DNA of 64,000 bases from Diacronema lutheri (taxonomy: Eukaryota > Haptophyta > Pavlovophyceae > Pavlovales > Pavlovaceae): assembly GCA_019448385.1 (NCBI GenBank), contig JAGTXO010000044.1, positions 1-64,000 of the forward strand, in the 5' to 3' direction. This document shows positions 10,870 to 31,968 of the stretch, in pieces. Under the pieces are notes generated by a model. The model searched no databases and was not told the origin of the DNA. It saw only the letters and a program-made list of their open reading frames with translations. Position 1 is the first letter of the stretch. The number at the start of each line of letters is the position of its first letter. The position numbers were made by a program, and so were the translations under genes.

Positions 10870-13800
10870 ATGGAGGACTCCGTGAAGGACGCTTTGCCCG
10901 GCGGGAGGGGCGGCTCGGACAGTTTCTCGCTGGCCCTCAGCACCATTCTGTCGCCGGGAGATACCCACCCCCACGTGGTCCCATCCACTTGCCTCATCGC
11001 CCTGCTGCGTTACGCGGATTTCGGCACGAGCAGGGTTAGGGTGGGCGACACGGGGTGCTCGCAGCATGCGCTCAAGGTGGCGCTGCGCAACCTGCGCAAA
11101 GCATGCGCGGATGCGGACCGGTTTGGGCAGGTGCTCGTGGTCGTGCTACCGCTCTGCCTCCGCGCGTCCAGCGGCCTCGTGCACTGGGCGGCGGCGTACC
11201 TGCTCCTCGCGCCGCCCGCGCAGCGCGGCGCGCCGCCCGGCGCCGCGCTCGCCCTGCTCGCCGATTCGCGCACCTTGGGCAACGGCGAATCGGCGTACGC
11301 CACGGCGGCCGGCGTGCTCATCAAGAAGCTTGCGCAGCGCATCGGCAGAACAGCGCCGCCCATCGATGCCTTCAAGGCGCCCCCGCAGAGTGGGGCCGCG
11401 TGTTGCTTCGCCGCGGCAACAGTCGCGGCCGAGGTCGTGGCGAGCGCATCGACGCTCTACGGCCGCCGCGCGAGTGTCCTTGTCGACATCAAGAAGGCTT
11501 TGGACGCGCGCCTCGCGCGCCTCACGACGGCCGCGTACGAGGAGACCCGCGCGCGCACGCTCCGCGCCGCCATCGGCGCTCTGCTCGGCGACCGCGCCAG
11601 GCGCTTCGGCCCGTTCACCCGCGAGGCCGCGCGGCTCGCCGAGGCCGCGCGGCTCGCCGAGGCGTGCGATGCCAGTGTCGGCGGATCCGCGCCCGACGGG
11701 CTGCTGCAGGCCGTCGAGGCGGCGCTGCGCGCGCCCGACGACCGCATCGCACGCACGGCCGCGCTCGACGCGCTCACGGGCGCTGCAGGCCGCGCGCTGT
11801 CGACGGCGGCCAGGCCGCGCGGCGCGGCGGCGCCAAGGCCGCCGTCGCGAGCGCCACCGCCGCGTGCGCCGCAGCGGCGCGCCGCCTCGGCGTGGGGGCC
11901 CCGACCATTCAGCAGCCTCGGCGGGGGCGAGGGCGACGGGGACGATGGCGACGCCACCACCGCTGACGACGGGGAGGGCGCGGAGGACGGGGACGACGAC
12001 CCCCGCGGGCGCGGCGGCTGCGGCGGTGGCGACGGGCACGGCGGCGACGAGCGCGGTGGCGGCGGGCGCGGCGCCAACCTCGCCGGCGGCGGCGGACGGC
12101 GGTGGCTCGGCGCCGCTCGAACGCCGCTGCGTCTACACTGCGCCTGATGAGGGCGACGCGGACGCGCGCGTGTACGACGCCAAGGACCCCGAGCAGCTAA
12201 AAGCGGGCAGGGCGCGGCTACGGGCGAACAGCGGGCGCGCGCCCGCCGTGGTCGACACGCTTTTCGCGCACGCGACGGGCACGATCGTCACGCGGCAGCG
12301 CACGGAGGGCGTGACCGGCGCGGGCATGCACCACCTCGCCGCCCCGACGCAGGGCGCGGGGTACGGTACCGTCGTGCGGGCCGAGCTGGGCGAGCCCGGC
12401 TTCGCGGGGACGACATGGCACATGACGTCGGGCGTGGAGAACCAGCCGCGCGCGGTACGAGCGGCCGCGCGCGCGTACGCGCACGACGGCTGGGGCGGCG
12501 TGTACAATGCGCACGAGGACTTTGCCGCCTTCGAGGGCTTGCCGCGGCTCGCCGCGCCCGAATCGCTCGCGGCCATCGCCGGCGGGTCGGCGGACGCGGT
12601 GTTCTGCTGGCGGTCCGGCCGGTCCGTCATCGGCGAGGTGACGACGGTTCACTTCAATGGCGACCGCGCCGCCGCCATCGACCACGCGCGGGCGCTGCGC
12701 GTCAGGCCCGATTGGCGCTCGCAGCCCAGGATCTACGAGGCGGCGTGCGGCGCGGAGGGCACGGTGCTGCTCGTGTGGGTCGTGCCCGACCGTCACAAGA
12801 ACCCGCGGCTGGACTGGGCGCCGATTCTCGTCGTGATCCACCTGCCCGCCGACCCCGACTGGCTCGCGCGCGCCACGCCGGCGATCGCGAAGGCGCGGCG
12901 CGAGGTCGAGGACGGACGCGCGCGCGCGGAGGCGCGCGGCGTGCCGCAGCACCTCGCCTACACGCTGAGCCCACGCTTCCGAGGCACCGCGCCGCGCGGA
13001 GCCGCGCGCGTGCCGCCGCGCCTCGGCGCGAGCGACGCGCGCGAGGCGCGCGCGCTCGCGGCGCTCGAGCCGGCGCTCATGTTCGCGCCGGCCTGGCGGC
13101 GCGCGGTGCGCGCGGCGAGCCGCGCCCCCGGCAGTGGCGCCGCGGCCGTCGAGCGCGCGCTCGCGCGCCTGCACAACGCGCTCGAGCCCGATGACGAGAG
13201 CGCGCCCGAGTCGACGCGCGTCGCGCCGCTCGCCGCCGCGCTCGAGCAGTCGGCGGGCTGGCCGGCGGGCACGGCGCGCATGGCGGCAAGCGTGACCAAG
13301 GGCCCCGGCGTCGGAGATGGCGCAGGTGGCGACGAAGTGACCAAAGTGGAGGAAACGGCGAAGACGAGCGGCGACGGCTGCACCGGCACGCCTCCTCTGC
13401 GCCCGGCCGCGCGCGCGGCCGGCGCGGCGGACGACGGAGGGGCGGCGGTCGTGGCGGGCGTCGAGGGCGAGCGCGACGCACTCGCCAAGACGGGTGCCGG
13501 CGGCTGCGACGACGACGCTCGCGAGCCGCTGTCGGCCGGCAAGCCCGGCGCACTCGCCGCCGCGGCGACCGTCGGGGGTCTCGGCGAGCTCGTCGGCAGC
13601 CTATGCGCGTGGCTGGCGCGCGGCGCGGCTGGCGGCGCCATCGCGGCCATCTCCCCCGGGACGGCCGCGCGCGGAGCAAACGGCACGCCGCAGCGCGCCG
13701 AGCCGCCGGCCGCCGGCGATCCCGTCGCTCCGCACGCGCGCGTCGCCGCTGCGGCGCCCTTGGCGGGCAGCGCGGCGGCGCCGTCGTCGGCCGCGCGCGA

Positions 13801-16800
13801 CGCGCAGCGCGGCGTCGCGGGAGTCGACGCGGCCGCGCACGCGCACGCGCGCGACGGCAGGCGGGCGGCACGGCGGATGCGCGAGCACGAGGGGGCGGTG
13901 CACAGGGCCTTCCGCATGTCCCTCTGGCGCGACGCGACGTTTGTCGAGTTCGTTGAGAAGCTGCGCCCCGACGGCGGCGCGCAGCTGCTCGCGCGCGAGC
14001 CCACGCGGCGCGCGGCGGCGGTGCTGTGCGAGCTCGCGCGCGGCCGCGACGGCGCGAGCGGCGCGGCCGGGCTGCTGCACGAGATGAGAGCCGCCGATGC
14101 GCGCGCGCGCGAGGCCGCCAAAGCGGCGGAGGCAGCGCGGCCTGCGCACGGGACGCTGCGCATCGTGGCAACCGTGGCGCTGGGCGGTGCGGTCTTCGCC
14201 GGCATGTCAGCGCTGGTCGTTGCTTGCGCGGCGCGCACGGCGACCGGTGCGCTTTTTGGGGCCCGCCGCCCGCGGGCGGCCGCGCGCGGAGCCGACGACG
14301 CGCTCGGCACGCTGCAGCGCGCCGAGCCGCCGCCCGCCGACAAGGGCAAGCGCAGGCGCGCCAGAGCCAACGACGACCCCGTCGACGCGGCGCGCAAGGC
14401 CGTGGGCAAGGCGGAGGGCAACTGCCGCAAGGCAGCCCGCCGGCTGCACCTCGCTGCACTGGGCGAGGAGGAGGCGCAGCAGCGCGTGCTCGACGCCGAG
14501 GCGGCGGAGCAGCTGGCGCGCTCGCGCGAGCCGGCCGGCGGCTGGGTAGGCAGCGCGCGCGCGCGCGCGCGCGCGCGCCCCGCCGCGCGCGCGCCCGTCG
14601 ATTGGCGTGCGCGCAGCGCAGAACGGCGCGCCAGCTCCGTCACCTGCGCGCCGCCGCGCCCGTGCCCCTCGCGCGCAGGGGCGCCCTGCGGACCTGCGGC
14701 TGCAACAGGCGCACTTTGGCATGCGCGAAGATGCCGACGCGGAAGTGCGCCGCGCGCACGAGGCGCTGCGCCGGGCGAGACAGGGTGTGGCGTGCGCCAA
14801 GGCCAGCGTGCGGCAGATGGAGGCGGCGTTGCTCAACGCGACGCGCTGCGCCACCGCGGTGCTCGCGCCGCGTGGCGTGCCGGAGGGTGACGAGCAGGCC
14901 GCGGCGAGAGAGCAGGCGGCGCTGGACCGGGAGGCGCCGCCGGCCGCGCAACGCGCGGCGCCGACGGCGCGCTCGCCCTCGGAGCCGCCGTCCGAGTGGG
15001 GCCCGCCAGCGGTCGGCCGGCGCCCGACGCCGCGTGCACTGTCGCACGCCGCGGGTCGCGGGGACGACAACCCGTTTGCGCCGCTCGCAACCGTCAGCGG
15101 CGATTGGTCGCCCACGCCGAGCTCGCGCTCGCCGTCCTCGCCGCCGCGGCAGCCGCCGTCCGACCGCCGCAGCGCGCAGCGTCGCAGCGCGCGCGCGCGG
15201 CCGCCGAGGCCGACCGTTTCGCCCGAGGACGCGCTCGCAGCCGAGCGCCAGGCGCGCGCGCTGTCGGAGCAGGCGGAGCAGAGGCGCGCCAAAAAGGCCG
15301 CCGCCAAGGCCGCGCGCCGCGCCGCGCGCGCCGCCGACAAGCGGACGGCGCGCGTCGTCCACGCGTGCGTAAGCGCCGCCTTGCGGCGCGTCTGCACGAG
15401 CGTCGCCACGGGCACGCCGCTCGCCGTGCTCCGCGAGCGCGCCGAGGGGCCGCGCGCGCCGAAGCCCGCGCCCGCGCCGCCACGCCGCGCAGCGGACGGC
15501 GGCCGCGCGCTCCGCCACGCGCGCCGTGCGGCCGCCGCGGCGGCGGAGCGCGAGGCGGCGGTGGCGGCCGACGCCGACGAGCGGTTCGAGCGGCAGCCCT
15601 CCGCCGCCCGGTTCGACGGCGGCGATGGCGGCGGAGGCGGCCACGTCGAGGCGAGCGCGCGACCGCGCGCCGGCGAGGCCGGCGAGGCTGGCGCGCACGG
15701 CGCGCCTGGCGCAGCGGGGCCCCCGGCGGCGTCGCTCGCGTCGCGCAGCCCGTGTGATGCGCGCCGCACGGCACGCCTCCCGCACGCACGCGCCGCAGCC
15801 ACCTGCGCACGCAACGGCGGCTGGGGTGGCAACGTCGGCGGCGACGTGTGCGGCGGTTGTTTCGGCGGCGGCGGCGTCCGTCGCGACGCCTGCGGCGGCG
15901 GCGACGCCACCTGCGGCTGCGGCGATGGCGGCGTCGGTGCTGGCGCTGGCGAGGCCCCTGCACACGGTGCGCCGGCGCGCGCGACGGCGTCGCGCTTGCT
16001 GCGCTTGCTCGGCGCGCCACGCGCCGTGCTCGGTGCGATGGCGCACGCCGCGGCCGTGTTGGCGCGCGGCGTGGCCGCAGCCGTCGCTGGCGTGCGCGCC
16101 GCCGCGCGCGCCGTGCGGCGCGCGCGCCGCCGAGCGCCTCGCGCGCGCCGCACGGCTGCGCGGCGGGCTCGCGGCCCGCCGATGCGCGACGTCGACGGCG
16201 CCCTGCGGCCCTCGCCGTCCTGGTTGCGCACACGCCTCGTCTGCGGCCGGCGCCTCGCGCCTCTGCGCCGCGCGGGCGCGCGCCCGCCGCCCGCACACGC
16301 CGCGCCGAGTTCCCGCGCGCGCGCTGCGCAACCCGACAGCGACGCGCCGGCGTGCGCGCCGCGGCGCTCGGCGCCTGTCGGTGCGCCGCCGCGCGCGCGT
16401 GGCCTGCGCGCGGCGCGCGCACGGCGCTTCCTCGACGTCGCCGGCCGCGCGGCGCGGAGCGCGCGCCTCGGCGCGCGCATCACGCGCCAGCGCACGCCGG
16501 GTTCGCCATCGGAGCCCTGCACGGCCGAGAGCGGCGACGGCGCGGGCGCCGGCGGCGTCGGCGCGGCGGCGCCTGGCGCGGCGACGATGCGCGCCACCGG
16601 CGCGCGCGCAGCGCGCGCTGCGGCGGCGGCGGTCGGTGGCGCCTCGCGTCTCGCGCGCCGCGCGATGGCAAGCGCCGCCGCCGCTGCCAACTCCATCGCC
16701 GGCGCTGCCGCCTCCACCGTCGCCGCCGCCGCCGTTGCCATCGGCGCGGCCGTCACGTCACCGGCGTTCGCCGCGGCGCGCGGCATGGCGGCCGCATGCG

Positions 16801-19126
16801 TCGCTGCCTGCGCCCGCCCCACCGCCGCGCAGGCGGCCGCGTCGCGCGCGCTCGGCGCGCTCTTCGTGCTCGTCGACGCGGCCGACGCGGCGGGCGACAG
16901 CGACGCCGCGCTCGGCGCGCTCGCGGCCGCGGTCGACGCGACGGAGCTGCGCCCGCCGCCGGCCTTTTGGCGCGCGGGCCGCGCCGCGGCGTACGCACCG
17001 CGTCCGCCGCCCCTCGACTCGGCGCGGCCGCGCTACAACCGGCGCGCGCGCGCACCTAGCCCTCCCGTCGCGGCCGCGCGGCGCAATCTCGCGCGCGCGG
17101 TGCGCGAGCTCACGCGCGCCGCGCGCGCTGAGCGCGAGCGCGCGCCGGCGCCGCGCGGCGCGCGCGGCGGCGTGCTCCACGCGCTGCGCGCGTCGCTCCC
17201 CGTGCACGCGCGTGCCGCGCTCGGCACGGACGCGGAGCTGCGCGCGGACATCGCCGCGTTCGCGCGCGCGCGCCGCGAGCTGCACAGCCTCACCGACGCC
17301 GAGGTGGCGGCGCTCGCGCGCCCGGACGGGCCGCCGCTGCCCGTGCGGCTCGCGTGCACGGCGGTCGCGCGCGCGCGCGGCGTGACCGTGCTGCTCGACA
17401 TCGTGCCGCGCGGCGGCGGCGCGCCCGAGCGGCTCGTGTGCCGCGCCCGTCGCCGCGGCGCCGCCACGCGCACGCCACGGCCGACAGCCGCCGTTATCGC
17501 GCGCGCGCCTTGCATAGCGGCGCGCGTTGGCCACACTGAGCCGGCGCGCGCGTGCGCGGGCGGATCGATCGGGGTCGCGCGCCTCCGTTCAGCGCGCCGC
17601 CGCTCTTGGCGTGGGGCGCGGCTCGACGTGCACACCCGCGAGCGGCTGGCCACACCGGTGCCAGGCCACGTCGTGGCCTGCGCCGCCGCCTCGGCCATCG
17701 GCGCGTGCGTCGCTCGCGCGCGGCTTGGGCTTGCACGGCTGGCGCGCGCGTGGCCCTGCGCCTCCGCTCCACTGGCCGCTGCTGCTGTCGCCTTCGCGCC
17801 TGCCGCCGACGGTGTTTTCTGCGCCCCGCTGGGCGCTCCTGCATCCGCCTTCGCGCCTGCCGCCGACGGTGTTTTCCCCGCCGCACTAGCCGCTGCTGCA
17901 TCCGCCTTCGCGCCTGCCGCCGATTTTCCCGCCCCACTAGTTGCTCCTGCATTCGCCTCCGCGCCTGCCACCGACGGCGTTTTCCCCGCCCCACTAGCCG
18001 CTGCCGCTGCCGCGTCCGCGCCCGCCGCCGCGGGCGCGTCTTCCGCCCCACCAGCCATCGCCGCCGCGCCCGCCGCCAACGCGCGCACCGCCAACGTGCC
18101 CGTTGCCAACGAGGCTACCGCCACCGAACCAGCCGCCCTTGAGCTTCCCCTCCAACCCGCCAACTCGGCGCTGCTTGCGTGGGCGGGCGACGCGGCTGCG
18201 CGCCGGCTGGCCGCCGCCGCCGCGAGCGCCGGCCTCCCGCAGGCAGAGGTGGAGCGCATCGCCAGCGGCGACATGCTCGCCTCAACCGTCGACGCGTGCT
18301 GCGAGGTCGTGCTGCGCGTGCACGGGCAGGCCGGCGGCGGGCATGTCTGCCACGTGCCGCTCGCCGCGCAACCTGCGGTGTTTCAGGACGACGCCGAGCG
18401 CGCCGCGCTGCTGCACCGCCTGCGCAGCGAGGCGACAACGCAGGCTGTCATCGGCGTGTGGAGCCCGTCGGACGAGCGCGGCGGCGCGGGCGGTGACGAC
18501 GGCGCGCAGCTCGCCTCCGGCCATTTCACCGCGTTGCGCCTTGTGCGCGTCGCGCGCGCGGGCGAGCATCGCTACGACGCGGTGCTCGTCGACACGCTCG
18601 CGTCGCCCTGCAGGCAGGCGCTCATGCTCGCCAAGGCGATAACTGCCACGCTGCACGCGGCGGGTCTCGACATTTCGCGCGTGCGCCGCGCGCTGCTGCT
18701 CAACGAGGCGGCGCAGCGTGGCGCGACGTGCGGCCTCGCGATAGTGGGCGCGCTCAACGACGCGCTCGCCGCGGCGGGCTGCTCGTCCGCGCCGCGCACG
18801 TTCAGCGTGGCGGACATGTACGCTGTCGGCGAGCGCCTCCGCGTCGCGCTGACCGGCGCGGCCGGCGATCGTGCGCCGGGCGGCGTCTGCGCGGTCACGA
18901 GCGCGGTGCGCGGCGGGGGCAGCCCCGATGGCGCCGAAACGCCGCCGCAGACGCGCGGCGCCAAGGCCGCCGCTGGCGTCACCGCCGCCGCCACCGCCGC
19001 CGCCACGCCGCCGCCGCCCGCGCTGGGCGCCGCCGCCGCCGCCACCGCCGCCGCCGCCGCTGCTGCCGCCGCCGTGGCCGCGCCGCCACCGCCGCCACCG
19101 CCGCCGCCGGCCGGCGACGCGGGCGA

Positions 19127-19202
<76 letters not shown>

Positions 19203-22200
19203 GCCGCGCGCACGTTCTTGAAGCTCGCGCCCAGGGCGCGCGCGGCCGCCTCGGCGCGTGAGGCGTTGCGCGCCGCGTGTGCGCGCGCGGACGCGGCGGC
19301 GTCGTCACACGCGTCGGCGCCGCACGCGCCCGCCGGTGCGCGCCGCCGGCGGCGCGCGGGCGCAGGCGAGCTGGCGCTCGCGGCTGCGCGCGCGCTCGCC
19401 TCGACGGAGCACGGCGATTTGACGGACGACGCGCTCGAGGCCGCCGTCGAGCAGGAGCTGGGCGACGAGCGCGGCCAACTGCTGCTGTGCACGCGGGGCG
19501 CAGCGGCGCAAAGGCCCGCGCTTTGCCGGCTCCTGAAGCACGCGTGCGCGTCGGCGCGCGCGGCGAAGCGCGCGCAATTCACGGTGTTCGTCGTGCGCGC
19601 GGCCACGCGCGGCGAGCGGGGGGGCGCCGCCGCGAGGCGCGTGGACTCGGTGGTCGAGCTGTCGTGCGCGCTGCACGAAAAGGCGGGCGCGCTCGGCGGC
19701 CTCCAGAGCGTCTGTGTGCGTGGCTTTGCCCTCGAGCGCCGCCGGACACTCGACGGTGGCGCCGAGGCCGGCGCGTCCGCCATCGGCCAGGACGAGCAGG
19801 TCGAGGCAGAGGCGGGCGAGGCGTCCGTCGCCGGCGTGACGATGGCCAAGCAGCTGCGTCAGTTTGCCGAGCAAGCTGCCCGCGACGACGTGCTCTTCCG
19901 CGTCGCCGTGTCCGAGGCCGACGCCCACGCCCGGCTGGCGCGCGTTGCGGGTGACGATGTCGGCGCGTACAGCGTCGTGCTCGCAGTCGCCGGGCTCGTC
20001 TGGCTGGCCAAGGCCGACGAGGTTGCGCCGGCGGCCGCCCGGTCCGCCGCCGCGCCGCCCGCCGCCCCGCCTGCTGCCGCCACGTCCGCCGACGCCGAGC
20101 GCGACGCCTCGCCTTCCGACCGCCTGCGCGCGCTGACGCTCGCCGTGCGAGTCGCGCTCGCGCGCGGCGTGCTGCGCCACCTCCTCGCCGACGCGTCGCC
20201 GGGCGCGTCCGCGACCGCTGGCGGTAGTTGCGCGACGCCCGTCGAGGCGGCCACGTCCGCCGCCGCGCCGCCCGCCACGGGCGTCGTGACGAGTGGCGTC
20301 GCGGCGGGCGCTGTGGCGGCCGCACCGGCTGCTGCGGGCGGTGCGACGGCGGGTGCATCGCCCATCACGCGGCCGGCGAAGCGCGCGCGGCGCACGCTCA
20401 CCGCCGCTCCAGCCGCCTCGGCCGTTGCGGCCGCTGGAGGCGCACGCGCGGGCGCACGCGGCGCGGCCGGCGCGCCTCGCGCGCGCGCCGCGCGCGCGCC
20501 GGCCGAGTACGTCTGGCTTGCCATCGCGCGCCGGATGCTGGCGGCGCGACACGCGGCGGCCGCGGGCGGCGACTTTGTCGCGTCGTGCGTCGCCGCGATG
20601 CAGGCCGAGTACGGCGACGGCTGTGCCGTCGTCGTCGGCGACGCGCCTGATGACGCCTTGGTCGAGGCTGCGGCGGCGGCGCTGCTCGAGGGCAAGCACG
20701 CGGCGGTGAGCCTCGGCTGCGTCGACCGGCCGGCGGTGCTCGTCGTGCAGCGCGCCGTGGACGCGCCCACGTCGCGCGTGCACGGGTGGTGCGCGCACGC
20801 GGCGGGCGCCGCCGAGTTTGACGAGGGCGCCGCGCACGGCGTGTTCAACGCGATCGTCGAGCGCGCGTGGGCGCTGCGTCCGGACCCGGCTGACGGCAGC
20901 CCGCCGCCCACGCGCACGTGGGAGGTCGAGCAAATCGCTGGCGACGCGCCCGACCAGGCGGGCGTGGCCGCGCTGCGCGTGCTCTACGCGCTCGTCGCGG
21001 CGCACGGCCGCTACCGCTCGGCCGCCGCGCTCTTTGGCGCGCTCGCGCAGCTGCACGCGCCCGACGCCGCCGGCGCGCGCGCGGAGGTCGTCGCGGCGGC
21101 GTGCGCGGTGCCGCACGGCGCGCGGCCGGGCGCCGCGCCGGCGGCCGCGCGGGACGACGCGAGGGAGCGCGCATGGGAGGGCGCTCAGATCGCCGCGCTC
21201 GCCGTCGGCGCGGACGCTGCGCGCAGGCGTGTCGCGCCCGTGCGCGCGCTCGTCGACGCGCTCGGCACGCCACCGACCTCGGCGATCACGGGCGGGCCGG
21301 CGGTCCGGCTCGCGGGCGCGGGCGACGGCGGCCACGGTGCACGGTGGGTGGGCGGGCAGGCGGCGACGCCCGCCGAGCAGCTGCCGAGGGAGCTGCTGCG
21401 CGCCTACCACGAGGCGGTGCTGTGCGTCACGCCCGGCAGCCTCCAGCTCGGCCCGGCGGCGCTCGACGCGGTCACGCGGCCGCGCGAAAACGACACGCTG
21501 GAAGGCCTCCTCGCGCGCGTCAGCTGGCAGTGCGGCGCGAGGGCGAGCACGTGCGCCATGCTCGCCACGTTTTCCGAGCAGGCGGGCACCGGCTCGCGCG
21601 TCGCGCTCAAGGCCCTCCGCACGAGCTCCGACCTGGCCGGGCTGACGGCGGCTGCGGTCGGGCAGCAGGCGCCGCAGACGCCGCCGCCGCCGCTGCTCGT
21701 GATGCTCGGCCGCTGCCCCAGCCCGCTCGTCGGCGGCGGCCTCTTCCCGCCCGACCGCGCGACGGGCGAGCCGGCGGTGCACGCGGCGACGTCCGAGCTC
21801 GCCGTCGAGCTGCTGCGCGACGCGCGCGCGCTGGCCGGCACGGACGGGCGGCTCGTCGTGCTGTGCCTCGAGGCGTCCAACCCGCTCTGGTTCTGCCCCA
21901 AGGTGCGCGAGCTCGAGCTGCCGCGGACGCGGTCGGACGGCGTGCGCGCGTCCGGCTGCACCTGCCCTGCGACGTGCAGCGATGCGCGCGGCGCGGCGGG
22001 TGGCGCTGCCCGCGGCGCATCGACGCGGCCGGCGGCGCGCGCGATCAACAAGGCGGTGCTCGACCACTTCGTCGCGCTTTTCGGCCGCGAGGGCTTCGCG
22101 ACCTTTGAGTTTGCGGGCGGCGGCGAGGCGAGCTGGCTGTGCGACAGCGCGGCCGGCAAGACGACCGTCGCGGCGTGCGCGTCGCTCCCGCCGCGCATGG

Positions 22201-25200
22201 GCGATGGGCAGCTGGCCATCCGGCGGCACACGCTCGGCACGGGCGCCGACGCGCCGGCGCACGCCGTCGTCTCGCTCCGCGTCGCGCACGTGAGCCACGC
22301 CATCCGCCGCGCGGCGGACGACGGCGGCGCGCGCGCCGAGCGGATGGCGCGCGCCGCGCGCGCGTTTTGCGATGTGGCGGCCGCGCTGCGCGTCGACGCG
22401 ATCCTGGCGGAGGTGCCCGAGGACCGCCCGACGGGCACGCCCTTCCTTGGCGGGCTGCTCGAGTTTTGGAACAAACGCCACGGGAGCTCGACGGCGCCAG
22501 CCACGCTCGCGCTCGGAGACGTGCGCGAGGTGGCCAAGCGGACGGCCGACGCAGCGGCCGGCCGAGCGGACGAGGTCCCTGCGGCTGGCCGTCCGCAGGT
22601 CGCGGCGCGCGCGTGCGCTGGCGCGATTGGCGGCGGCGCGGGCGCGGCGGGCGCCTCGGACGCTGCGCCCCGTGCACTGGCGGGCGCGTCGGGTGCGCGC
22701 ACGGACGGCGGCCCTGCCGACGCACCGCGCCAGCTGGAGAGCCGCTACGGCGAGGCGAGCAAGCTCGACCTACCCCAAGATTCCACTACGGGCTGCGTCC
22801 TCGACGCTCGCGAGGCCCAGGACCGCGCGCGCGTGCCTGCTGCGCCCGACGGCACAGCGCTGCGCCGCGTGCTCGACGCCGTCGGCGCGGGCGCGCCCGC
22901 GCAGCGCAGCCCGCGCTGGCACGACGAGCGATGGGAGGAGGTCACGGGCAGCAAGGTTGGCGACGTCGTGAACGACAACGCCGGCGTCGCGCACGAGACG
23001 CTCACCGACGAGTACGTGCACCGGCGGCGGCGCGAGGTGCGGACCAAGGCGACGACCGCGGGCATCCTCGGCGAGGCCGTCGCGCTGCGCAAGCTGGCGG
23101 CCGCGTACGGCATCACCGTCGTGTGCAACCTGCCGATGGTGCGTGCGGACCCGCACGACAAGAGCGCGCCGTTCGCCTTCTCGCCGGACGGGCTCGCCAT
23201 CCTCCCCGAAGACAACGAGCAGGTCCTCGTCGAGGTGAAGACGCTCACCAAGGCGGACGCCAAGGCGCACGAGGACGGGCCGCCGCAGCCGCACCGCGAT
23301 CAGCTGCAGCTCGGCATGCACGTCCTCGGCGTGCGCAAAGCGCTCTACGTGCAGTACCTCAGGCACGAGGACCGGATCGTCGTGCACGTCGTGACGCGCG
23401 GCGTCGGCTGGCTTGCATTCGCGCAGCCGAGGGTGCAGGCCTTCTGGGCGCGCGTCGTCGAGCGGCGCGCGCGGCTCGAGCGCGCGCGCGCCGACCACCC
23501 GGCTGCGAGCCGGCGGCACCGGCGGCAGCAGACGCCGGCCGGGCCGCCGCTCGTGCTCGCGCTGGACGGGCGCATCCCCGCCGCGCGCGCCGCCGCGCTG
23601 CACGCCGTCGCGCACGGCACCGCGAGCGCGGCGGCGGTGGCGGCGACGGCGGCGACGGGCGACGCGACGGCGTTGCAAGACGCGATCGCGGCGCTGCGCG
23701 CGCCCGTCGGCAATGCGGCGATCGACAGCGCAGCGCGTGCGGAGCGCGCGGCCGTCGAGCGGGCGATCGCGTACCTCGGGCAGCCGGCAGGCGACGCCGC
23801 CGCCCGCGGCACGGCCGAGGCGGCCGAGGAGGAGAGGACGGTCGACGCCGACATCTGCGCGTTGCTGCACCAGCTCGGCGCGAGCGTGGCGCACGTGCAC
23901 GTCGAGGACGCGGATTGCGTCACGCGTGAGCACTGGGGCGGGGCGGTGCTCGCTGCAGCGGGCGACCCGTCGAGCGCCCCCGCCATTTCGAGCGTCATCG
24001 TCGCGCACATCGTGCGGCTCGCCGGCTTTGGCGTCGAGCTCCCGCAGTCGATTCGCGTCGCCCCCAGCACGGCCGACTGGCACGAGGGCTGGCTCGACGT
24101 GCAGTGCGTGCTGCTGCGCACGCGCCGGCGCGGGCGGCGCGACGACGACTTTGTGGCCGTCGTCAGGCGCGGTGGGCGCTGGTTTGCGTGCGAGCCCGGC
24201 CGCGCGCGGCGGCTGCAGTGGCGGTCGGTCCTGCGCCGCGCGCGCGGCGGCGTCGACGGGACCGGCGAGGAGGCGTTCGCGGTCGTCTACGTGCGGCGCG
24301 GCGACGCGGCCGGCGACGCGGCTGGCGACGCGCAGGCCGAACGGGCGCGCGGCGGGCGCGCGCGCAGGCGCACGCGCGGCGGCACGCGCAAGCGCAAGCG
24401 CGGCGCCTCCGCCGGGCTCGAGGCGGCCGCGCCCGCCGGCGCGCCGGCGGGCGCTGCTCACCGCCCGCCCGCCAGGCGTGCCACGGTCGCCGCGCGCACC
24501 ACGCGCTCTGTGACCGACGCGCGGCACTCGGCGCCTGCCGCCACGGTTGCACCTGTCTTCGACTGGCGCGCCGGCCGCCCGCCCCCTGCCGCCGCCGCCG
24601 CCGCCAAGCGCGGCCAGGCGCTCGAGCCGGGGCAGTTCGCGCGGCCGCGTGGGCGCGCGCCATGGGGCAAGGTCTGGGACAGAGTCTCGGGTGCGTGGGC
24701 GGGCAAGCCGACTGGTGCTGCCGTCGCCGCCGCGCCGCCGCCGCTGCCGCCCGCCGCCGCGCCGCCGCCCGCCGCCGCGCCGCCGCCCACCGCCGCGCCG
24801 CCGCCCGCCGCCGCGCCGCCGCCCGCCGTCGCGCCGCCGCCCGCCGCCGCGCCGCCGCCGCCGCCGCCACCGGCGGCGCTCGGCCGCCGGCAGCACGTCG
24901 GCGCGGGCGGCAGCGCGGCGGGCCGGCGGCTCGCGGCCATCGCACGGCGGCAGCGCGGCGTGCGCGCGCCGCCGCCCGCCGCGCGCTTCCTCGCCACGCT
25001 GCCGCCACCGCCACGCGACGGCCTCGCGCGCACGAGCAAGCAGGCGCGCGCGAGGCGCAACGCGGACGGACGGCCGGCGCACGCGCGCGCGGCCAACGCG
25101 CGCGCCTTCTACCGCGGCGTGGAGCTCGGCGTGCACGCGACGCGCGCCATCGTCGACGCGCGCCACGCCGACCTGCCGCAGGCCGTCTTCGTGGCGGAGG

Positions 25201-28200
25201 CGCGGGCGATCGTCGCGCGCTCCGCCGGCGGCGGCGCGCTGCTCGCGCCGGACGACGTGCGCGACCTGTGCGACGCGCAGACGGACGCCGATCGCGCTGC
25301 GATCTGGGCGTCGGTGGGCGCGCACGAGGCGACGCGCATCTTCGCGCTCGTCACGCGCAACGCGAGCTTGGCGGGCGCGGCGCTGCTCGTGCTGCACACG
25401 CCGGCGGGCGCGCCGGCGCGCGCGCTCGGGCTCGTGGCGACGCGCTCGCGCGCGCCGTCGACGGGCGCGCCGCGCGACGCGCACAGGGCGCTGGTGCAGC
25501 GGTTGGACGTGCTGATGGACGCGATCGCCGCGGCGCGAGGCGCGTCGCCGCTCGAGCTCGAGCTCGCGCTCGCGCCCGAGCCGCAGAGCGCGTGCAACGC
25601 GCGTGCGGCCGCGCTGCTCTGCCTGCAGGCCGTCGCGGACGCGAGCGGCCGTCCCGCCGCTGAGGACGCGCTGGCCGCGCTCGACGACGCGCGCGGCATC
25701 GACCGGCACTGCCACGCCGTCCGGCAGCAGATCGAGGCGAAGCTCGCGTGGCGGCGCGCCGACGGCGCCGTCGGCGTTGACGGCGCCGACGGCGCGCCCG
25801 CGCTCGCGCCTGCCGCCGCACCGCCGGCGTGCGCGCCGGCGCACGCTGCCGGCGAGGCGGCGGTCGACCAGGCGATCGTCACGCGGGTGCGCGACGCGCT
25901 GCGCGCGTGGGCGACGACTGGCACCGCGCCCAGCGCGGCGGTGCTCGACGACGCCTGCGCCGCGTACACGGCCCGCGCACGCGCGCGCAAGGACGCGCGC
26001 ACGGCGCTGGGCCCGACGCGCGCGGCCGAGCTGCTCGCCGCGGCCGCGCGCGGCGGAGCCGACGGGGCGGATGCCGCGCGCGCGCTGCTCGGCGGCACGC
26101 CGCGCCTGCTCGTCGTGCTCCTCTGCGTGCCCGTCGCCGCGCCGTCCGGCGAGCCGCCGCGCCCGGTCGGGCTGCTCGTCGCCGACCGGCCGACGGACGA
26201 CTCGCGCCCGGCCGCGCTCGTGCGCTACGACTTTGCGCCGCTCGACGCGGACGTGGCCGTCGCGGTCGGCGCGCATGCCGTCGCGCTGGCCAGTGCGATC
26301 TGGCCGCTGCTCGCGGCCGAGGGGGAGCCGCGGCCATCGCCCGTCGTGCGCTCGCAGCCGCGCGGCGGCGACGATGGCGCGCGTGCGCTCGCAACGTTCG
26401 CGTGCCTCGACGCGCTGATGACCGCCAGCGTCGGCGCGCACGGCCTCGCGGGCGGCGCGGGCATGCTGCCCGCGCTGGTCGCGCGAGGCGCCGCGGCCGC
26501 CCAGCGCGAGCGGCAGCTGCGCGCGGCCGCCGAGAGGCTGGGCGGCACGGTCGCTGGGTGGCCGGACACGGGCGCGAGCGCGGCGGGCGCGAGCGTCGAC
26601 GAGGAGGCGCGCACGTACGAGGTCGAGGCGGTCGTCGACGAGCGCCGCAAGGCGGGCAAGAAGGTGACGTTCCAGTTCCGGATCAGGTGGCGGGGCTACG
26701 ACGAGAGCGCCGACACGTGGGAGCCTGAGGCCAACGTGAGCAGCGACCTCGTCGCCCAGTTCCGCAAGACGCGCGACGAGCAGAAGCGGCGCGCGGGCGT
26801 ATCGGGCAGCGGCAGCGGCGGCGCGGGCGCGGCGTCGGCATTGGCGTCGGCGCCGCTTCGCGCGCACGGCGAGTCGGGCGCCGCGGGCAAGCGCGCCGCG
26901 GCGGGTGCCGCCGCGAGCGCGCGCGACGCCGCGGGCGCGCGCGCGCCGAGCGTTCCCCGCGCGCGCGGCGTCGAGCGCGCGCGCGTGGACGAGCCCGCTG
27001 CGCCGAGCGCGCGCGCCGCCGGCGGCGCGACGGCGCGCACGCGCGGCAGCGTGCTCCCGGGCTTCGTGGTCAAGCGCTCGACGCTCAACGCGGGGCCGCA
27101 GGCGGTGACGGCGCAGCCCGGTGCGCGGAAGGAGCTGCGGCGCATCGCGGCGGCCGTGCACAGGCTCACGACACAGGCGTACCGCGTCATCAACAAGGTG
27201 GTGCGCGACGAGGCTGCGGTGGCGAGCGCGCAGGCCGTCGGCGCGGCGTCAGGCGGCCCGTCGACCAGCGTGCACACGTCGACCACGATGGACAAGGGAA
27301 CCGTCCGTGCGATCTTCTCGGCCATCGGCTGGCACAAGGACGAGAGCACGTACGGTGCAGCGCCCCGAGGCAAGCCCGCCGAGCAAGCCGCCGCGCAGAC
27401 CAAGGCGGCGACGGCGCGCGCCGTCGGCGAGATGGCCGAGGGCGTCCAGCCCGTCTGCGCGGTGGGCCTCACGGAGATCCTCGAGGCGGAGGCGACGCAG
27501 GTGTCCACCGCGTGCCTGATGCATCCATCGCGCGTCGTGAACGGGCTGCTCCGCGACGTCGTCCGCGCGGCAGTCGAGCGCGACGAGGCGCTCGTCGCGC
27601 TGCCCGAGATGCAGCGAAACGCGCGCGTGCGCGAGCTGTGCGAGCGGCTGCTGCGCGGCGACGTGGAGGGCGCGCGCGTCGGCTGCCCCGCCGCGCTCGA
27701 CCGCCACCTGCCCGACATGGTCCTCCACAAGATCGACTACAAGTGCACGCCCACGAAAAGGTGGAACTACGACCGGCACACGACGCGCTACTTCCTCGTG
27801 CAGATCCGCACCCTGCAGCACGTGGCCGAGGGGCAGGCGCTGCTCTGCCGGCTCGCGCACATCCACACGCAGCTGACCGGACGGCCGCCGCGGTACAATG
27901 TGGCGCCGCTGCGCACGCACAATGTGCGCGCGAGGCGTGGCTGCCGCTGCCGCCGCCGAGGGCCCAAGCGCGCGCGCGCCGCCGCCGTGCGCGCCGCCCC
28001 GCGGCCAGGTTGGTCACGCGCCCGCGCGCTCGCGCGCCGCGCGCTGCGCGCAGGTGCCGCGCAACGTGCGCTTCGCCGCGAGCGCCATCTGGGTGACGCT
28101 TTCGGATGACGAGCGCAAGGAGCTGCGCGCGCGGCTCAAGGCGCTGGACCTGCGCGACCACGATGGCGAGCCGATCAAGTGAACAGGCACAAACGGCAAC

Positions 28201-29778
28201 ACCCCGCCGATGTCGGACGTGCGCGTCAGGTACGCGGTCTTTGCGACGCGCTTCGACATCTCCAACCGCGTCTTCGACTACGCCGGGCGCGAGCGGCCGC
28301 CGGCCGATCTGCCGTGGCACGCGCGGCGCTCGTGGGTTGGCCTCGCGCCGCTGCCGCGCGTGCCGCTCCCGGGCCGGCAGCCCGTCAAGTCGGTGGTGAC
28401 AGATGGCGTCGCCGTGCACGCCGTCGGGACCGTCCTCGTGCCGAAGGCGCAGGCGCCGGCCGGCGGCTCGGGCGTCCTGCACCGCTGGCGCCGGCCGGAC
28501 GGGCGCATCGCCGTCGCGCTCGGCTCCGAGCTGCGGCGGGCGATCGACGTCGAGGCGGCGGTCGTCGTCGCGGCCGACCCGAACATGGGCAACATCACCA
28601 CCTACTCTGCGCACGTCGGGCGGGCGGCCGTCTGGCGGCAGTTCACGCAGCGCGCGCGCGCGCGCGCCGCGGGCTTTGCGCGCGAGACGGCCAAGACCAA
28701 CGCGGCGCGGCGGCGCGTGCGCAAGGACGGGCGCGGCGAGGAGTTCAGCGTGGAGGCGGACGAGGCGCGGCTTGGCGAGGCGCACAGCGCCAAGGTGCTC
28801 GGCGAGGGCGAGTTCCACGCCTTCCACCGCGAGAGCGCGCGGGTGCGCGAGCGCGCCGCCGAGCACGTGTACGACGCGCCGGCGCGCCGGAAGGAGCGCT
28901 GGCGGCGCGACAGCGGCGGGCGGTCCAACGCGGCGCGCGTCGCCGAGGCGCTCATCGCGGCGCACTGTGTCGACGGCGTGACGCGCGACCGGCTGCTCGT
29001 GTGCGTGGGCAAGTGGCTGCGCGACCACAAGGGCGCGCAGCCCAAGGGCGCGCCGCCCGCCTTCCAGGTGGGGCTGCTGCGCGAGCTGCGGCGGCGCGGC
29101 GTCGCGGCCGTCTTCGTGCCCGAGCCGTACACGTCGATGCACTGCTCGATGCCGCGGCTCGCCAAGGGCGGCAGGCTGCAGCGCTGCGGCGCGGAGCTCG
29201 CGCAGAACCCGCGCCTGCCCGTGGCAAAGGGCGGCACGCGCACGGTGCACGCGCTCGTCATCTGCCCGGCGTGCAACGGCGGCAAGAAGCCCGTGCACCG
29301 CGACTACAACGCCGCGCGCAACATCTTCTACGACGTGCACGACATGGCGGCGCACGCGGCCGGGCGCGACACCACGTCGACGCCTGAGCGCTTTGCCCTC
29401 GTGCTCGCCTGGTGGGCGCGCGGCGAGGTGTGGGAGCGTGAGGAGCGCATGGTGCACGGCGAGGGCGACGACTGCGACGACGAGTGCGACGGCGACGACG
29501 AGGGCGACGACGAGGGCGACGACGACGACGACGACGATGGCAGCGGCGACGGCGGCGGCGGCGAGGGCGACGGCGACGGCGACGGCGACGGAGGCGGCGG
29601 CGGCGACGACGACGATGACGGCGGGGGAGGCGGCGGCGGCGACGGCGGTGGCGACGACGGCGGCGGGCGCGGCGGCGGTGGCGGCGGCGGCTCTCGCGCC
29701 CGCACCCCCGCCCGCGGAGCTGCCAGCGCCAGTGCCGGCGGCGGCAGCGCGCGCGGGCCGAAGCGCGGCCGGCGTTGA
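10870..29778 (+). CDS. Giant multidomain element protein: C48-like peptidase x2, YqaJ nuclease, chromodomain, Fanzor
   Basis: ATG at 10870 (MEDSVKDALPGG). Three open frames connect through predicted introns. One at 11864-11915 (52 nt) is tentative. The intron at 14546-14678 (133 nt, phase 0) joins GGW to GRPADLRL. Those at 27924-28053 (130 nt) and 28179-28229 (51 nt) lie in the Fanzor part. One frame has no stop for 13.5 kb, giving a product of about 6,200 residues if it is a single gene. Domains in order: C48-like peptidase 1; coiled-coil-like and Ala/Arg-rich stretches; 19-residue repeats; C48-like peptidase 2; long uncharacterised stretches; YqaJ-type nuclease; proline-rich linker; chromodomain; Fanzor; acidic Gly/Asp tail. 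It could be a self-cleaving polyprotein, or several genes whose boundaries are hidden by the high GC. No DDE transposase or tyrosine recombinase was recognised. Confidence 0.55.
11100..11450 (+). other. Ulp1/C48-like peptidase module 1
   Basis: Counting from the ATG at 10870, the order typical of C48/adenain-like peptidases is seen: His105 (GLVHWAAAYLLL), Asp132 (LLADSRT), Gln173 and Cys178 (PPQSGAACCF). Gln lies 41 residues after Asp, and Cys lies 5 after Gln. Module 2 in the same locus has exactly these two spacings. In known families the fold cleaves SUMO/ubiquitin-like tails or viral polyproteins; the target here is unknown. Confidence 0.5.
17765..18055 (+). repeat. 57 bp (19-codon) tandem repeats
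   Basis: Four to five imperfect units, each with CCTTCGCGCCTGCCGCCGAC and then GGTGTTTTC or a variant, start at about 17791, 17848, 17905 and 17956 (the last after a 6 bp shortening). They encode an Ala/Pro-rich linker (AFAPAADGVF) just before C48-like module 2. The period is a multiple of three, so the frame is kept. Confidence 0.75.
18330..18850 (+). other. Ulp1/C48-like peptidase module 2
   Basis: In the long frame the catalytic order is His (codon 18522, SGHFTALRLVR), Asp (18591, VLVDTLAS), Gln (18714) and Cys (18729, AAQRGATCGLAIVGAL). Asp-to-Gln is 41 residues and Gln-to-Cys is 5, the same as module 1. This is the more canonical copy because TCG resembles the DCG motif of Ulp1. An SAPRTFSVADMYAVGERL tail follows. 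Confidence 0.6.
19125..19203 (+). repeat. (GCC)n tract encoding polyalanine
   Basis: About 24 consecutive GCC codons follow a proline/glycine stretch, between C48-like module 2 and the next globular segment. It is probably a linker and a likely site of length variation. Confidence 0.85.
22900..23480 (+). other. YqaJ/lambda-exonuclease-like PD-(D/E)XK nuclease module
   Basis: The N-terminal signature QRSPRWHDERWEEVTGSKVG (about 22903-22962) matches the start of YqaJ viral recombinase domains. The catalytic core follows: FAFSPDGL (Asp codon 23187) and LVEVKT (Glu codon 23232, Lys codon 23238). The helix RDQLQLGMHVLGV and the strand KALYVQYL come next. This gives the D-(E)-x-K arrangement with the downstream Gln typical of the family. 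Such enzymes resect dsDNA ends in phage recombination. Here the module sits in frame between a peptidase module and a chromodomain-Fanzor. Confidence 0.75.
24727..24872 (+). repeat. PPPAAA-encoding tandem repeat
   Basis: An 18 bp-type unit (GCCGCGCCGCCGCCC variants) is repeated about seven times and encodes alternating PPP and AAA, with single Thr and Val substitutions. It forms a linker after the YqaJ-type module. Confidence 0.8.
26600..26775 (+). other. Chromodomain
   Basis: The sequence starts TYEVEAVVDERRKAGKKV and continues through FRIRWRGYDESADTWEPEAN to a C-terminal helix VAQFRKTRDEQKRR. The three aromatic-cage positions of HP1-type chromodomains are present: Tyr (codon 26616), Trp (26688) and Tyr of RWRGY. 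In HP1 and chromoviral integrases this fold binds methylated histone H3. It lies about 280 bp before the Fanzor N-terminus in the same frame, so it may direct the element or nuclease to chromatin marks. Confidence 0.85.
27040..29778 (+). CDS. Fanzor (eukaryotic TnpB-like RNA-guided nuclease), C-terminal part of the giant frame
   Basis: The N-terminal helical region starts near GSVLPGFVVKRSTLNAGPQ (about 27040). Two introns restore the frame: 27924-28053 joins APLRTHN to VPRNVRFAASAIWV, and 28179-28229 (51 nt) removes an in-frame TGA and joins GEPIK to YAVFATRFDISN. RuvC-I is VVAADPNMGNITTY (about 28566-28610), RuvC-II is VFVPEPYTSMHCS (about 29111-29150) and RuvC-III is HRDYNAARNIFYDVH (about 29298-29342). 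The zinc-ribbon cysteines lie in TSMHCS, LQRC and CPAC. An acidic Gly/Asp tail of about 115 residues follows the core. Known Fanzors cut DNA guided by an RNA taken from the element's 3' side. All three acidic catalytic positions are kept, so it could be active. Confidence 0.8.
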
Positions 29779-30680
29779 CGCACGGCCGAGCCGCGCAGCG
29801 GTCGACGCTTTGCGGGCTCTGCCCAGGTCGCGCGCGGCTGGCGACGCGTGCCGCGCGCGGCACGACCGTGCACGCCGCCACCCGTGGCCGAGCGCGCCGC
29901 ACCAGCCGGCCCGCTCCAACCGCCGTGCGGATCACGGACGCTCGCTACGGCTCGTCGGCGCGCGTCACCTGCGCCGGCGGCCACGGCGCCGTCTGCTCCG
30001 GCCTCGTCGCGAGCAGCCCGACCGCTGCTCGCCGCCCGCACGCCGCCGCAGCAACGCTGCGCGTCGTGCTCCCCCGCTCGCCAAACGCGAAGAGCTCCCT
30101 CACAAGGACGTCCTTCCGAACGGCCCGCGCTGCACTCGGGGCGCGATCGTGCCCCTGATCGGATTTGGCTTGACCATCTATACCTTACAGGCGGGTCAGC
30201 AGGAGGGGCGCGCACGGGGCCGAGGCTGGACAAACGGAGCGAGCGAAAGGGCGCACGCAACATCAGGCCGAAATCAGGGCGTCGACCCTTATATAATAAC
30301 GACGCTTTCCGACGGGTCAACAGATGGGGTCAGGAAGTGCGCAGCGAGGCGCCAGGCGGAGCAGGCCCAAAGGCCCACACGCGCCTAGCCACCGCGCGCC
30401 GCCGCCCGCGCGCCGCCGCACCGGTGGCTGCCGTCAATCACACCACCGGCCGACGCGCACGCGCACGCCGAGGCCCGAAGATCGTCGGCGACGACCGCCA
30501 CCCCCGAGCCGCCGCCTGCCACGTCGCCAAGCCGCCCGCCGCCGCTGCAGAGCGCGACGCCCGCCGCCAGCGAGCCGCCGCCCTCCCCGCCGCGTCGCAG
30601 CCCCCTGTCGCCGCGGCGAAGCGCACCGCCACCCGCCGCCAGCGTGGCAAGCGCCGCGATGCTGGCCGCGTGGCCGCGCA
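29779..30680. other. Fanzor 3' flank: no gene; candidate guide-RNA/right-end region
   Basis: No supported coding sequence follows the Fanzor stop. The first 350 bp are GC-rich and unremarkable. The sequence then becomes less GC-rich (about 30140-30320) and holds the dispersed repeat described separately. In TnpB and Fanzor systems the guide RNA comes from the sequence overlapping or following the ORF's 3' end, so this is the place to look for one. No RNA structure was verified. Confidence 0.35.
30181..30405. repeat. Dispersed repeat, fullest copy
   Basis: The left half (30181-30290) is about 80% identical to the reverse complement of 52428-52541, sharing for example CCCTTTCGCTCGCTCCGTT and CCTCGGCCCCGTG on the minus strand here. 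The right half (about 30290-30405) resembles 33925-34080 in direct orientation (AGCGAGGC, GGCCCAAAGGCCC, CGCCTAGCC). The copy is about 400 bp downstream of the Fanzor stop. It holds no ORF. Confidence 0.6.
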
Positions 30681-31565
30681 CGCGCGCCCCGCCACCCCCA
30701 AACCCACCGACCGGGGCGAAAAGTACGTTGTTCGCGGTGCCGGCGCAGTCGATGGGCAGGGGCGGCGGGGCGCGCGGAGCGCGGCCAGCAGAGCGCGAGG
30801 GCGCAGCCGTCGCAAGCGAAGGTTTCGTCGTAGAGAAGGCCACGCCGCCGTCGCTCGTGCGGCCGTGCGCGCGCGCCCCGCCACCTCCAAACCCACCGAC
30901 CGGGGCGAAAAGTACGTTGTTCGCGGTGCCGGCGCAGTCGATGGGCAGGGGCGGCGGGGCGCGCGGAACGCGGCCATCAGAGCGCGAGGGCGCAGCCGTC
31001 GCAAGCGAAGGTTTCGTCGTAGAGAAGGCCACGCCGCCGTCGCTCGTGCGGCCGTGCGCGCGCGCCCCGCCACCCCCAAACCCACCGACCGGGGCGAAAA
31101 GTACGTTGTTCGCGGTGCCGGCGCAGTCGATGGGCAGGGGCGGCGGGGCGCGCGGAGCGCGGCCAGCAGAGCGCGAGGGCGCAGCCGTCGCAAGCGAAGG
31201 TTTCGTCGTAGAGAAGGCCACGCCGCCGTCGCTCGTGCGGCCGTGCGCGCGCGCCCCGCCACCCCCAAACCCACCGACCGGGGCGAAAAGTACGTTGTTC
31301 GCGGTGCCGGCGCAGTCGATGGGCAGGGGCGGCGGGGCGCGCGGAGCGCGGCCAGCAGAGCGCGAGGGCGCAGCCGTCGCAAGCGAAGGTTTCGTCGTAG
31401 AGAAGGCCACGCCGCCGTCGCTCGTGCGGCCGTGCGCGCGCGCCCCGCCACCCCCAAACCCACCGACCGGGGCGAAAAGTACGTTGTTCGCGGTGCCGGC
31501 GCAGTCGATGGGCAGGGGCGGCGGGGCGCGCGGAGCGCGGCCAGCAGAGCGCGAGGGCGCAGCCT
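30672..31565. repeat. Five tandem copies of a 189 bp unit
   Basis: The marker CGGGGCGAAAAGTACGTTG occurs at 30712, 30901, 31090, 31279 and 31468, exactly 189 bp apart, with only scattered substitutions between units. Because 189 is a multiple of three, several reading frames on both strands stay open across the array; the ORFs therefore give no evidence of coding. The longest minus-strand ORF begins with TTG, not ATG. Near-identity suggests recent expansion or homogenisation. Confidence 0.95.
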
Positions 31566-31683
31566 GGATGGCAAAGGCAGGCGTCGTCAAGGCAGCCGGC
31601 GTTTCGAAGCTTCCGGCCGGCACGGCCGCGCCGGCGCGCGCCGCGCCGACGGGGACCACGGTGCCTCGCAGCTGTTCAAAAGC

Positions 31684-31703
31684 TATATATATATATATAT
31701 ATA
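31684..31703. repeat. (TA)n microsatellite
   Basis: About ten TA dinucleotides just after the 189 bp array. It stands out in otherwise GC-rich DNA. Confidence 0.95.
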
Positions 31704-31968
31704 TCGCGGTCCGGGCTGGTCCGGTCAGTAGGGGGCTGAGAGTACGACCCGGGTCGTACAATCAATCGAGCGGGCGCGGCGGACGGAGGGCCCGAGCCGG
31801 GCCGACGGAGGGTCCGACCGGAAGGGCTCGAGTGATTGACGCCCAGTAGAATAGAATGGCGGATTCCGGGGAGGTCGCAACTGGCATCGCGCAAGCTGAG
31901 GCGCTCTGACTGACCGGACCGCGCCGAGTGCGCTTGCCACATGGGAGCAAACCAGCGAAACCCTCGGG

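Follow-up and report, generated by a model that had tools for sequence, protein, structure and literature searches.

The first part of contig JAGTXO010000044.1 (GenBank assembly GCA_019448385.1) of the haptophyte Diacronema lutheri raises the question of what kind of genetic unit would encode, in one coding stretch, a Fanzor, a chromodomain, a YqaJ-type exonuclease and two C48-like peptidases. The window analysed here covers positions 1 to 64,000 of this contig. We read the unit as a Fanzor-bearing giant DNA transposon, not assignable so far to a superfamily and recently amplified in D. lutheri. Our best explanation for the locus as a whole, a giant DNA transposon family driven by a Fanzor polyprotein with guided cutting, resection and chromatin tethering, has in our judgement an even chance of being right.

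Extent, copy number and size classes of the element

The beginning of the window is one copy of a mobile element whose outermost 5′ segment is known from other copies:

1–30183, + strand: mobile element copy, defined by copy alignments; a further 858 bp at its 5′ end would precede the first base of the contig

Pieces of the copies C89, C82 and C71 align to the window with 99.1–99.7% identity up to position 30182/30183. Past this point C89 and C82 diverge from the window and the C71 contig stops. The 5′ end of the element was located at C89:1320748 and C82:1391139. Full-length copies are about 31.0 kb long and further size classes are found near 29, 26 and 21.5 kb. The genome searched comprises 103 contigs with 43,492,796 bases. 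In it the 3′ end, probed with a 26-mer, has 224 sites at up to 2 mismatches, and the 5′ end, probed with a 46-mer, has 198 sites at up to 3; the reversed controls have none. The best 40 of 263 candidates for a 1-kb probe from the long frame, the window's own site among them, are ~100% identical to it over almost its full length. The element is present in about 200 dispersed, nearly identical copies with fixed ends, which bears out the large mobile element proposed by an earlier sequence-only reading of the window and provides both of its ends.

Sixty elements were paired from the exact ends listed on contigs C1–C46 (89 5′ ends and 97 3′ ends). The 31-kb class accounts for 28 of them, the classes near 21.5, 29 and 26 kb contribute 12, 7 and 6, respectively, and 7 have other sizes; the overall mean is 28.06 kb. 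Extrapolation of this mean to all ends gives 5.6–6.3 Mb, or 13–14% of the genome; because truncated copies lower the total, the family may occupy roughly 5–6 Mb of the 43.5-Mb genome.

Outside the element, window positions 31696–31937 are 87–89% like the element 5′ end and are preceded by a TA run, as in an older truncated relative. A 189-bp tandem repeat fills positions 30667–31722 (the reference and three copies are 97–98% identical, the fifth 63%), and the minus-strand ORF across it has no Pfam match. Between 33900 and 64000 Pfam identifies ordinary host-type genes: protein kinase, R3H, WD40, subtilase, SNF2-RING (HIRAN weak) and NHL-repeat proteins.

The polyprotein gene

A plus-strand gene at 10870–29778 is predicted to encode a polyprotein of 6.2 kaa. 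Two C48-like motif sets are followed in it by a RecE/YqaJ exonuclease, a chromodomain of the CDY/HP1 type and, at the C-terminus, a Fanzor. The gene has three exons:

10870–14545, + strand: exon A, with the first C48-like set near 11173–11500 (C48 by motif only)
14546–14678, + strand: predicted intron 1, GT-AG, phase 0, 133 bp in 5/5 copies (sequence prediction only)
14679–27923, + strand: exon B, 4415 stop-free codons (ORF, codon usage, copy comparison)
27924–28053, + strand: intron 2, GT-AG, phase 0, 130 bp in the window and 128 bp in 4/4 other copies
28054–29778, + strand: exon C, Fanzor RuvC and zinc ribbon followed by an acidic and glycine-rich tail (Pfam, motif, copy comparison)

The single frame without stops for 13.5 kb from which the reading had started is present at 14550–28109 (4519 codons). 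Long frames also occur by chance in the window, up to 1492 codons in antisense. Codon-usage scores favour the long frame across most of 14.7–27.9 kb, are weak in it at ~15.6–16.5, 17.4–18.0, 20.1 and 24.6 kb, and are marginally higher for the other strand in a low-complexity bin near 18.9 kb. Along the element they support the plus-strand genes for the PIF1-like protein (2.5–4.75 kb), the USP-like protein (6.5–7.5 kb) and the polyprotein (10.84–29.7 kb). Since the score was trained on sequence inside the genes that it marks (the PIF1 start, the Fanzor exon and portions of the long frame), it separates frames and is no stand-alone proof of coding. It is higher on the minus strand in single 300-bp bins near 0.34, 2.14 and 8.44 kb, and equal on both strands in the acidic tail near 29.4 kb.

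The two GT-AG phase-0 introns are likely. The 2-bp length difference of intron 2 between the window and the other copies leaves both adjoining exons in frame. The annotated protein KFE25_006464 joins the exons exactly at this point (RTHN-VPRN). The sequence-only reading had likewise predicted an intron link from the long frame to the RuvC and zinc-ribbon part. A further intron link suggested near 12 kb is dropped: exon A of the window copy carries there one extra base, near position 12000, that breaks the frame and is absent from 4/4 other copies, a private insertion for which an assembly error is possible. In KFE25_006464 the spliced Fanzor fragment is fused to SAM domains, a possible host capture of element sequence.

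In the Fanzor exon the window copy of the polyprotein is broken a second time, by a TGA at position 28180, where 4/4 other copies are open. The coding sequence is open over all three exons in three of the five copies examined, C89, C82 and c29 (a 29-kb copy), with 6218, 6213 and 6213 aa, respectively. Exon B of C71 has 25 stops between two 1-bp indels. None of the 150 scored matches to a 210-aa YqaJ slice has an internal stop. The open frames around them range from 1169 to 6136 aa, and 111 of the 150 measure at least 4000 aa; these are the best 150 of 237 candidates, a sample that leans to good copies.

Domains of the polyprotein

The following domains and motif sets lie in exon B:

18264–18760, + strand: second C48-like set, with H in GHFTALRLV, D in VLVDTLA, and Q and C in AAQRGATCGLA (motif only)
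22908–23465, + strand: YqaJ/RecE-type exonuclease domain, SPDG...LVEVK (Pfam, PHROG)
26613–26770, + strand: chromodomain with cage residues Y, W, Y (Pfam, PDB sequences)
27060–27923, + strand: N-terminal part of the Fanzor, in the frame of the chromodomain, partly spliced to the exon C start in KFE25_006464

The exonuclease assignment combines a D-(E)xK core in the sequence with profile matches. A slice of the domain scores 22.4 bits in Pfam (cut-off 22), the whole ORF gives no Pfam report at E ≤ 0.01, and the PHROG family of RecE-like exonucleases is matched with E 1.5e-17. The domain shares its SPDG...EVK core with the lambda exonuclease/RecE (YqaJ) enzymes of phages and differs from them in being embedded in a eukaryotic polyprotein together with a chromodomain. 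The latter is recognized by Pfam (5.7e-12) and among PDB sequences by CDYL (1.4e-10) and HP1 (1.3e-9); its aromatic cage residues Y, W and Y are assigned by analogy with HP1.

The Fanzor matches the Pfam family Cas12f1-like_TNB (1.6e-6). The published Fanzor motif (Bao-Jurka motif), located in the C-terminal half, is D-X(125,275)-[TS][TS]xx-C4-X(5,50)-RD (PMC3627910). Copy C89 has D-X184-TSMHC...C...CPAC-X8-RD and the window residues are identical there, so that the protein, which sits at the 3′ side of the element, carries a motif of the form D-X184-TSxx-C4-X8-RD. The alternative position of the RuvC-II glutamate, described as ExxxxxxC in PMC10711439, is occupied in EPYTSMHC. At RuvC-I, PMC10711439 gives DPG as near exclusive among Fanzors, and the element has DPNMG. 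We therefore consider the protein a divergent Fanzor-like one, not a typical member, and count this residue against the best explanation. With the exonuclease, the chromodomain and the Fanzor, three of the domains named by the sequence-only reading are borne out by profiles or published motifs.

The two C48-like peptidases are candidate assignments based on motifs. H, D, Q and C are visible by eye in both sets, neither set has a match in Pfam or PHROGs, and the second set, the only one tried, has none among PDB sequences. The two sets do not match each other. In the 21.5-kb copy the second set keeps H, D, Q and C and is 84% identical over 174 aa. Judging from these motifs, the C48-like modules may possibly cut the polyprotein. 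Weaker C48-like/USP-like patches were seen by eye in exon B, for example at 23.8–24.35 and 25.1–26.5 kb, and these two have no profile match.

The domains stay together in the family. Markers with up to 3 mismatches have 235 sites for the chromodomain, 233 for the Fanzor and 167 for the first C48-like set. An exact Fanzor marker lies 2.5–2.72 kb downstream of 86 of the 93 exact chromodomain sites listed on contigs C1–C42, and 85 of the 93 YqaJ matches scored on these contigs are accompanied by an exact chromodomain marker with the spacing expected; as only exact sites are listed, a marker missed through a mismatch does not show absence. The domain order seen in the window thus recurs in other copies within the D. 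lutheri genome. The 21.5-kb copy has no first C48-like module and differs in the N-terminal half of the protein, and it keeps the second C48-like set, the YqaJ domain, the chromodomain and the Fanzor.

Upstream genes

Two further genes precede the polyprotein in the element:

2580–4760, + strand: PIF1-like helicase gene, decayed (Pfam PIF1, Pif1_2B)
6698–7504, + strand: USP-like ubiquitin hydrolase with NEGSACY and SGHLVAIV boxes (Pfam UCH 6.1e-9 on a slice)

The helicase gene is a relic. Its Pfam matches (PIF1 3.7e-14 and 1.8e-24, Pif1_2B 6.2e-13) are spread over two frames, and further PIF1-like motifs are visible by eye in a third. All four 31-kb-class copies examined share the frame shifts; C96 and the 21.5-kb copy have shortened versions of the gene. 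An intact version in C96 was ruled out, as the N-terminal part is missing there and the frame is shifted again. The USP-like gene has a dN/dS of 1.18 between size classes, with no sign of constraint; it is frame-shifted in c29 and, in c21, interrupted by a stop close to its end. The helicase relic and the unconstrained USP-like gene both count against the best explanation.

Divergence between copies

Exon B of five copies has 54, 64 and 56 variable sites at codon positions 1, 2 and 3, a flat distribution which indicates drift in the young copies. When the 31-kb class is compared with the 21.5-kb class, the core of the second C48-like set, which lies in the most divergent block of the latter, has a dN/dS of 0.41, with 31 of 61 differences at third positions, and was therefore once under selection. 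The comparison of the two classes gives 0.82 for Fanzor exon C (10, 14 and 12 differences at positions 1–3), 2 synonymous and 0 non-synonymous changes for the Fanzor N-terminal part, and zero synonymous differences for the YqaJ domain. Among eight 400-codon blocks after 19.35 kb, most of which have few changes, three have ratios above 1 and one has no synonymous change. The flat codon positions, the exon C ratio and the blocks above 1 count against the best explanation, and the missing signal of constraint in Fanzor exon C lowers our confidence in it.

Relative to the window, 10 of 12 exonic indels are multiples of three when split gaps are merged (among them gaps of 29 nt and 4 nt in c29 that lie 10 nt apart; counted separately, 9 of 13). 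One 3-nt event is common to C82 and C71; apart from the c29 gaps, the two indels that are not multiples of three both occur in C71. Slippage in trinucleotide repeats also favours multiples of three. The second C48-like core, the Fanzor N-terminal part and the indel lengths speak for the best explanation. The picture is that of an old coding gene, recently amplified.

Element ends and target site

The ends of the element are accompanied by two non-coding features:

30138–30183, + strand: 3′ terminus, hairpin GGGGCGCGATCGTGCCCC, then ...GACCATCTATAC; candidate right-end guide-RNA region with a putative RNA role
1139–2024, no strand assigned: subterminal inverted-repeat block, apparently non-coding (repeat scan; low coding scores)

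TATA is found at both ends of the element. Twenty junction pairs were chosen from the listed exact ends. The right junction is CATC-TATA followed by C in all 20, for which the chance is 2e-9 at the window C content of 0.37, and the left TATA is preceded by C in 14 (an enrichment with p 0.003), G in 4 and T in 2. The contig stops 1–2 bases past the right end in two of the 20. No target-site duplication beyond TATA was seen by eye in 17 of the 18 pairs whose flanks were both long enough to compare, the flanks looking unrelated, and in the pair L047/L048 ~12 bp are common to both flanks. A long terminal inverted repeat was not found between the two element ends. The hairpin is subterminal, ~27 nt ahead of the 3′ end. 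The fold of the 3′ end is not better than that of shuffled sequences (z −1.29) and Rfam at gathering scores has no match in the window; both results count against the best explanation.

The arms of the inverted-repeat block are 324 nt long (1184–1507 and 1640–1963) and 96% complementary. Short GGGTGTA telomere-like arrays occur in these subterminal repeats at 1139–1186, 1410–1457, 1690–1737 and 1962–2009. At least eight contigs (C1, C3, C5, C6, C8, C12, C14, C71) stop within 2 bases of an element 3′ end and, among the matches listed, C32 and C49 end near an element 5′ end. That such contig ends are natural telomeres is unlikely, since TTAGGG arrays terminate other contigs such as C15 and C30 (among the matches listed, 100 of 212 sites), which suggests that the contig ends at the element are assembly breaks.

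A different repeat with the terminus GTTAGTAT is present at window positions 30245–30330 and at L068–L087 (best 40 of 252 candidates scored), and flanks or hosts some insertions of the giant element. A search for empty sites by way of this flanking repeat returned the repeat's own terminus.

Proposed mode of propagation

The best explanation builds on the fixed ends, the ~200 copies, the TATA junctions with a polar nTATAC and the predicted 6.2-kaa protein, whose frame is intact in several copies and which has a Fanzor at its C-terminus. The polyprotein, possibly cleaved by its own C48-like modules, would supply the Fanzor, and this nuclease, with a guide RNA from the right end of the element, would cut TATA-marked sites, for example a donor site left empty or an allele that lacks the element. 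The RecE/YqaJ exonuclease would resect the ends, so that the element could be copied in or restored by recombination, and the chromodomain would tether the complex to marked chromatin. The first excision or integration might be carried out by a recombinase too divergent to be recognized or supplied in trans. Donor-site restoration by a guided transposon nuclease is known from TnpB and speaks for this reading. Of the coupling between cutting, resection and chromatin targeting proposed by the sequence-only reading, the mobile element and the shared domains are observed, and the functional coupling is suggested by the shared reading frame.

No transposase or recombinase was recognized in the ORFs scanned, which counts against the best explanation. 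The scan, on which the other domain negatives are also based, covered the frames of the polyprotein and, before 11 kb, the main ORFs on either strand; after 11 kb it was confined to the plus strand of the element, and it stayed inside the part of the element present in the window.

A giant Helitron-like (rolling-circle) element, whose Rep was lost or acts in trans and for which the Fanzor and the remaining domains are cargo, is an unlikely alternative that explains several features. Helitron ends are TC...CTRR, from which those of the element differ. A PIF1-like helicase lies upstream, as near Helitron2, the subterminal 3′ hairpin is of the Helitron kind, and there is mostly no target duplication beyond TATA. 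PMC3627910 describes duplications like the ~12 bp of L047/L048 for Helitron2 and a Fanzor1 in Helitron2 elements of a green alga. Exon B has HxH triplets, one of them in AHVHVED at ~23.9 kb, but neither the AHVHVED slice nor the ORFs scanned match a Rep/HUH family, and the PIF1 N-terminal part has no HxH in its own frame. The helicase is thus found without the Rep/HUH partner that a RepHel protein combines with it. The element also differs from Helitron2 in its termini and decayed helicase, and the family was amplified although PIF1 had decayed.

The TATA direct repeat at both ends and the polar nTATAC (C on the right in 20/20, on the left in 14/20) would fit strand exchange within TATA by the tyrosine or serine recombinase of a Crypton- or IS607-like element. 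This origin is improbable, because no recombinase family is matched in the ORFs scanned; a divergent enzyme is possible. A degenerate endogenous element derived from a large DNA virus and amplified by host processes is very unlikely: YqaJ/RecE exonucleases are also found in phages and Fanzors in haptophyte viruses (PMC3627910), but three scans of viral contigs, which reach close relatives only, returned no relatives, no capsid, polymerase or packaging family was matched in the ORFs scanned, and the precise fixed ends of ~200 copies argue for transposition.

Relatives and described elements

Polintons/Mavericks and other giant elements carry C48 proteases. The D. lutheri element resembles Polintons in its large size and C48-like motifs. 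It is unlike them in that the ORFs scanned match neither polymerase B nor capsid nor RVE integrase families, and in that its two ends do not form a long terminal inverted repeat. The three viral-contig scans used single-protein queries. No relatives outside D. lutheri were found in the protein database, either for the polyprotein region 2700–4450 (1396 candidates scored) or for the YqaJ slice (1373 candidates scored). The best 8000 candidates for the Fanzor query include one ENA protein with 99% identity and KFE25_006464 of D. lutheri with 94% identity over 15% of the query.

The Fanzors described in PMC3627910 likewise lie within dispersed DNA elements, and algae are among the known hosts. 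Examples there measure a few kb and several belong to a recognized superfamily. The D. lutheri Fanzor differs in forming the C-terminal part of a 6.2-kaa polyprotein, and the 31-kb element around it has no recognized transposase. In the literature searched, Fanzor occurs together with chromodomain in three papers and with transposon and Ulp1 in one; passages of PMC6338049, one of the three, mention Fanzor and chromodomain separately. No paper with both Fanzor and YqaJ was found in this literature, which hardly extends to subscription journals or preprint servers, and none of the titles and abstract openings listed points to the whole set. The polyprotein appears to be undescribed in that literature, in keeping with the statement of the sequence-only reading that no element with this set of domains was known to it.

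Fanzors are known chiefly as single ORFs in borrowed transposons and their role for the element is unsettled. The frame described here links a Fanzor with a chromodomain and an exonuclease of the RecE type. It offers a directly testable natural system for spread driven by a guided nuclease, and a set of domains for chromatin-directed cutting and resection. That the family represents a new superfamily, spreading by RNA-guided cutting and recombinational copying with one self-processed giant protein and no classical transposase over about an eighth of the genome, is a doubtful but possible extension of the best explanation. If true, one giant protein would combine a guided nuclease, a resecting exonuclease and a chromatin reader.
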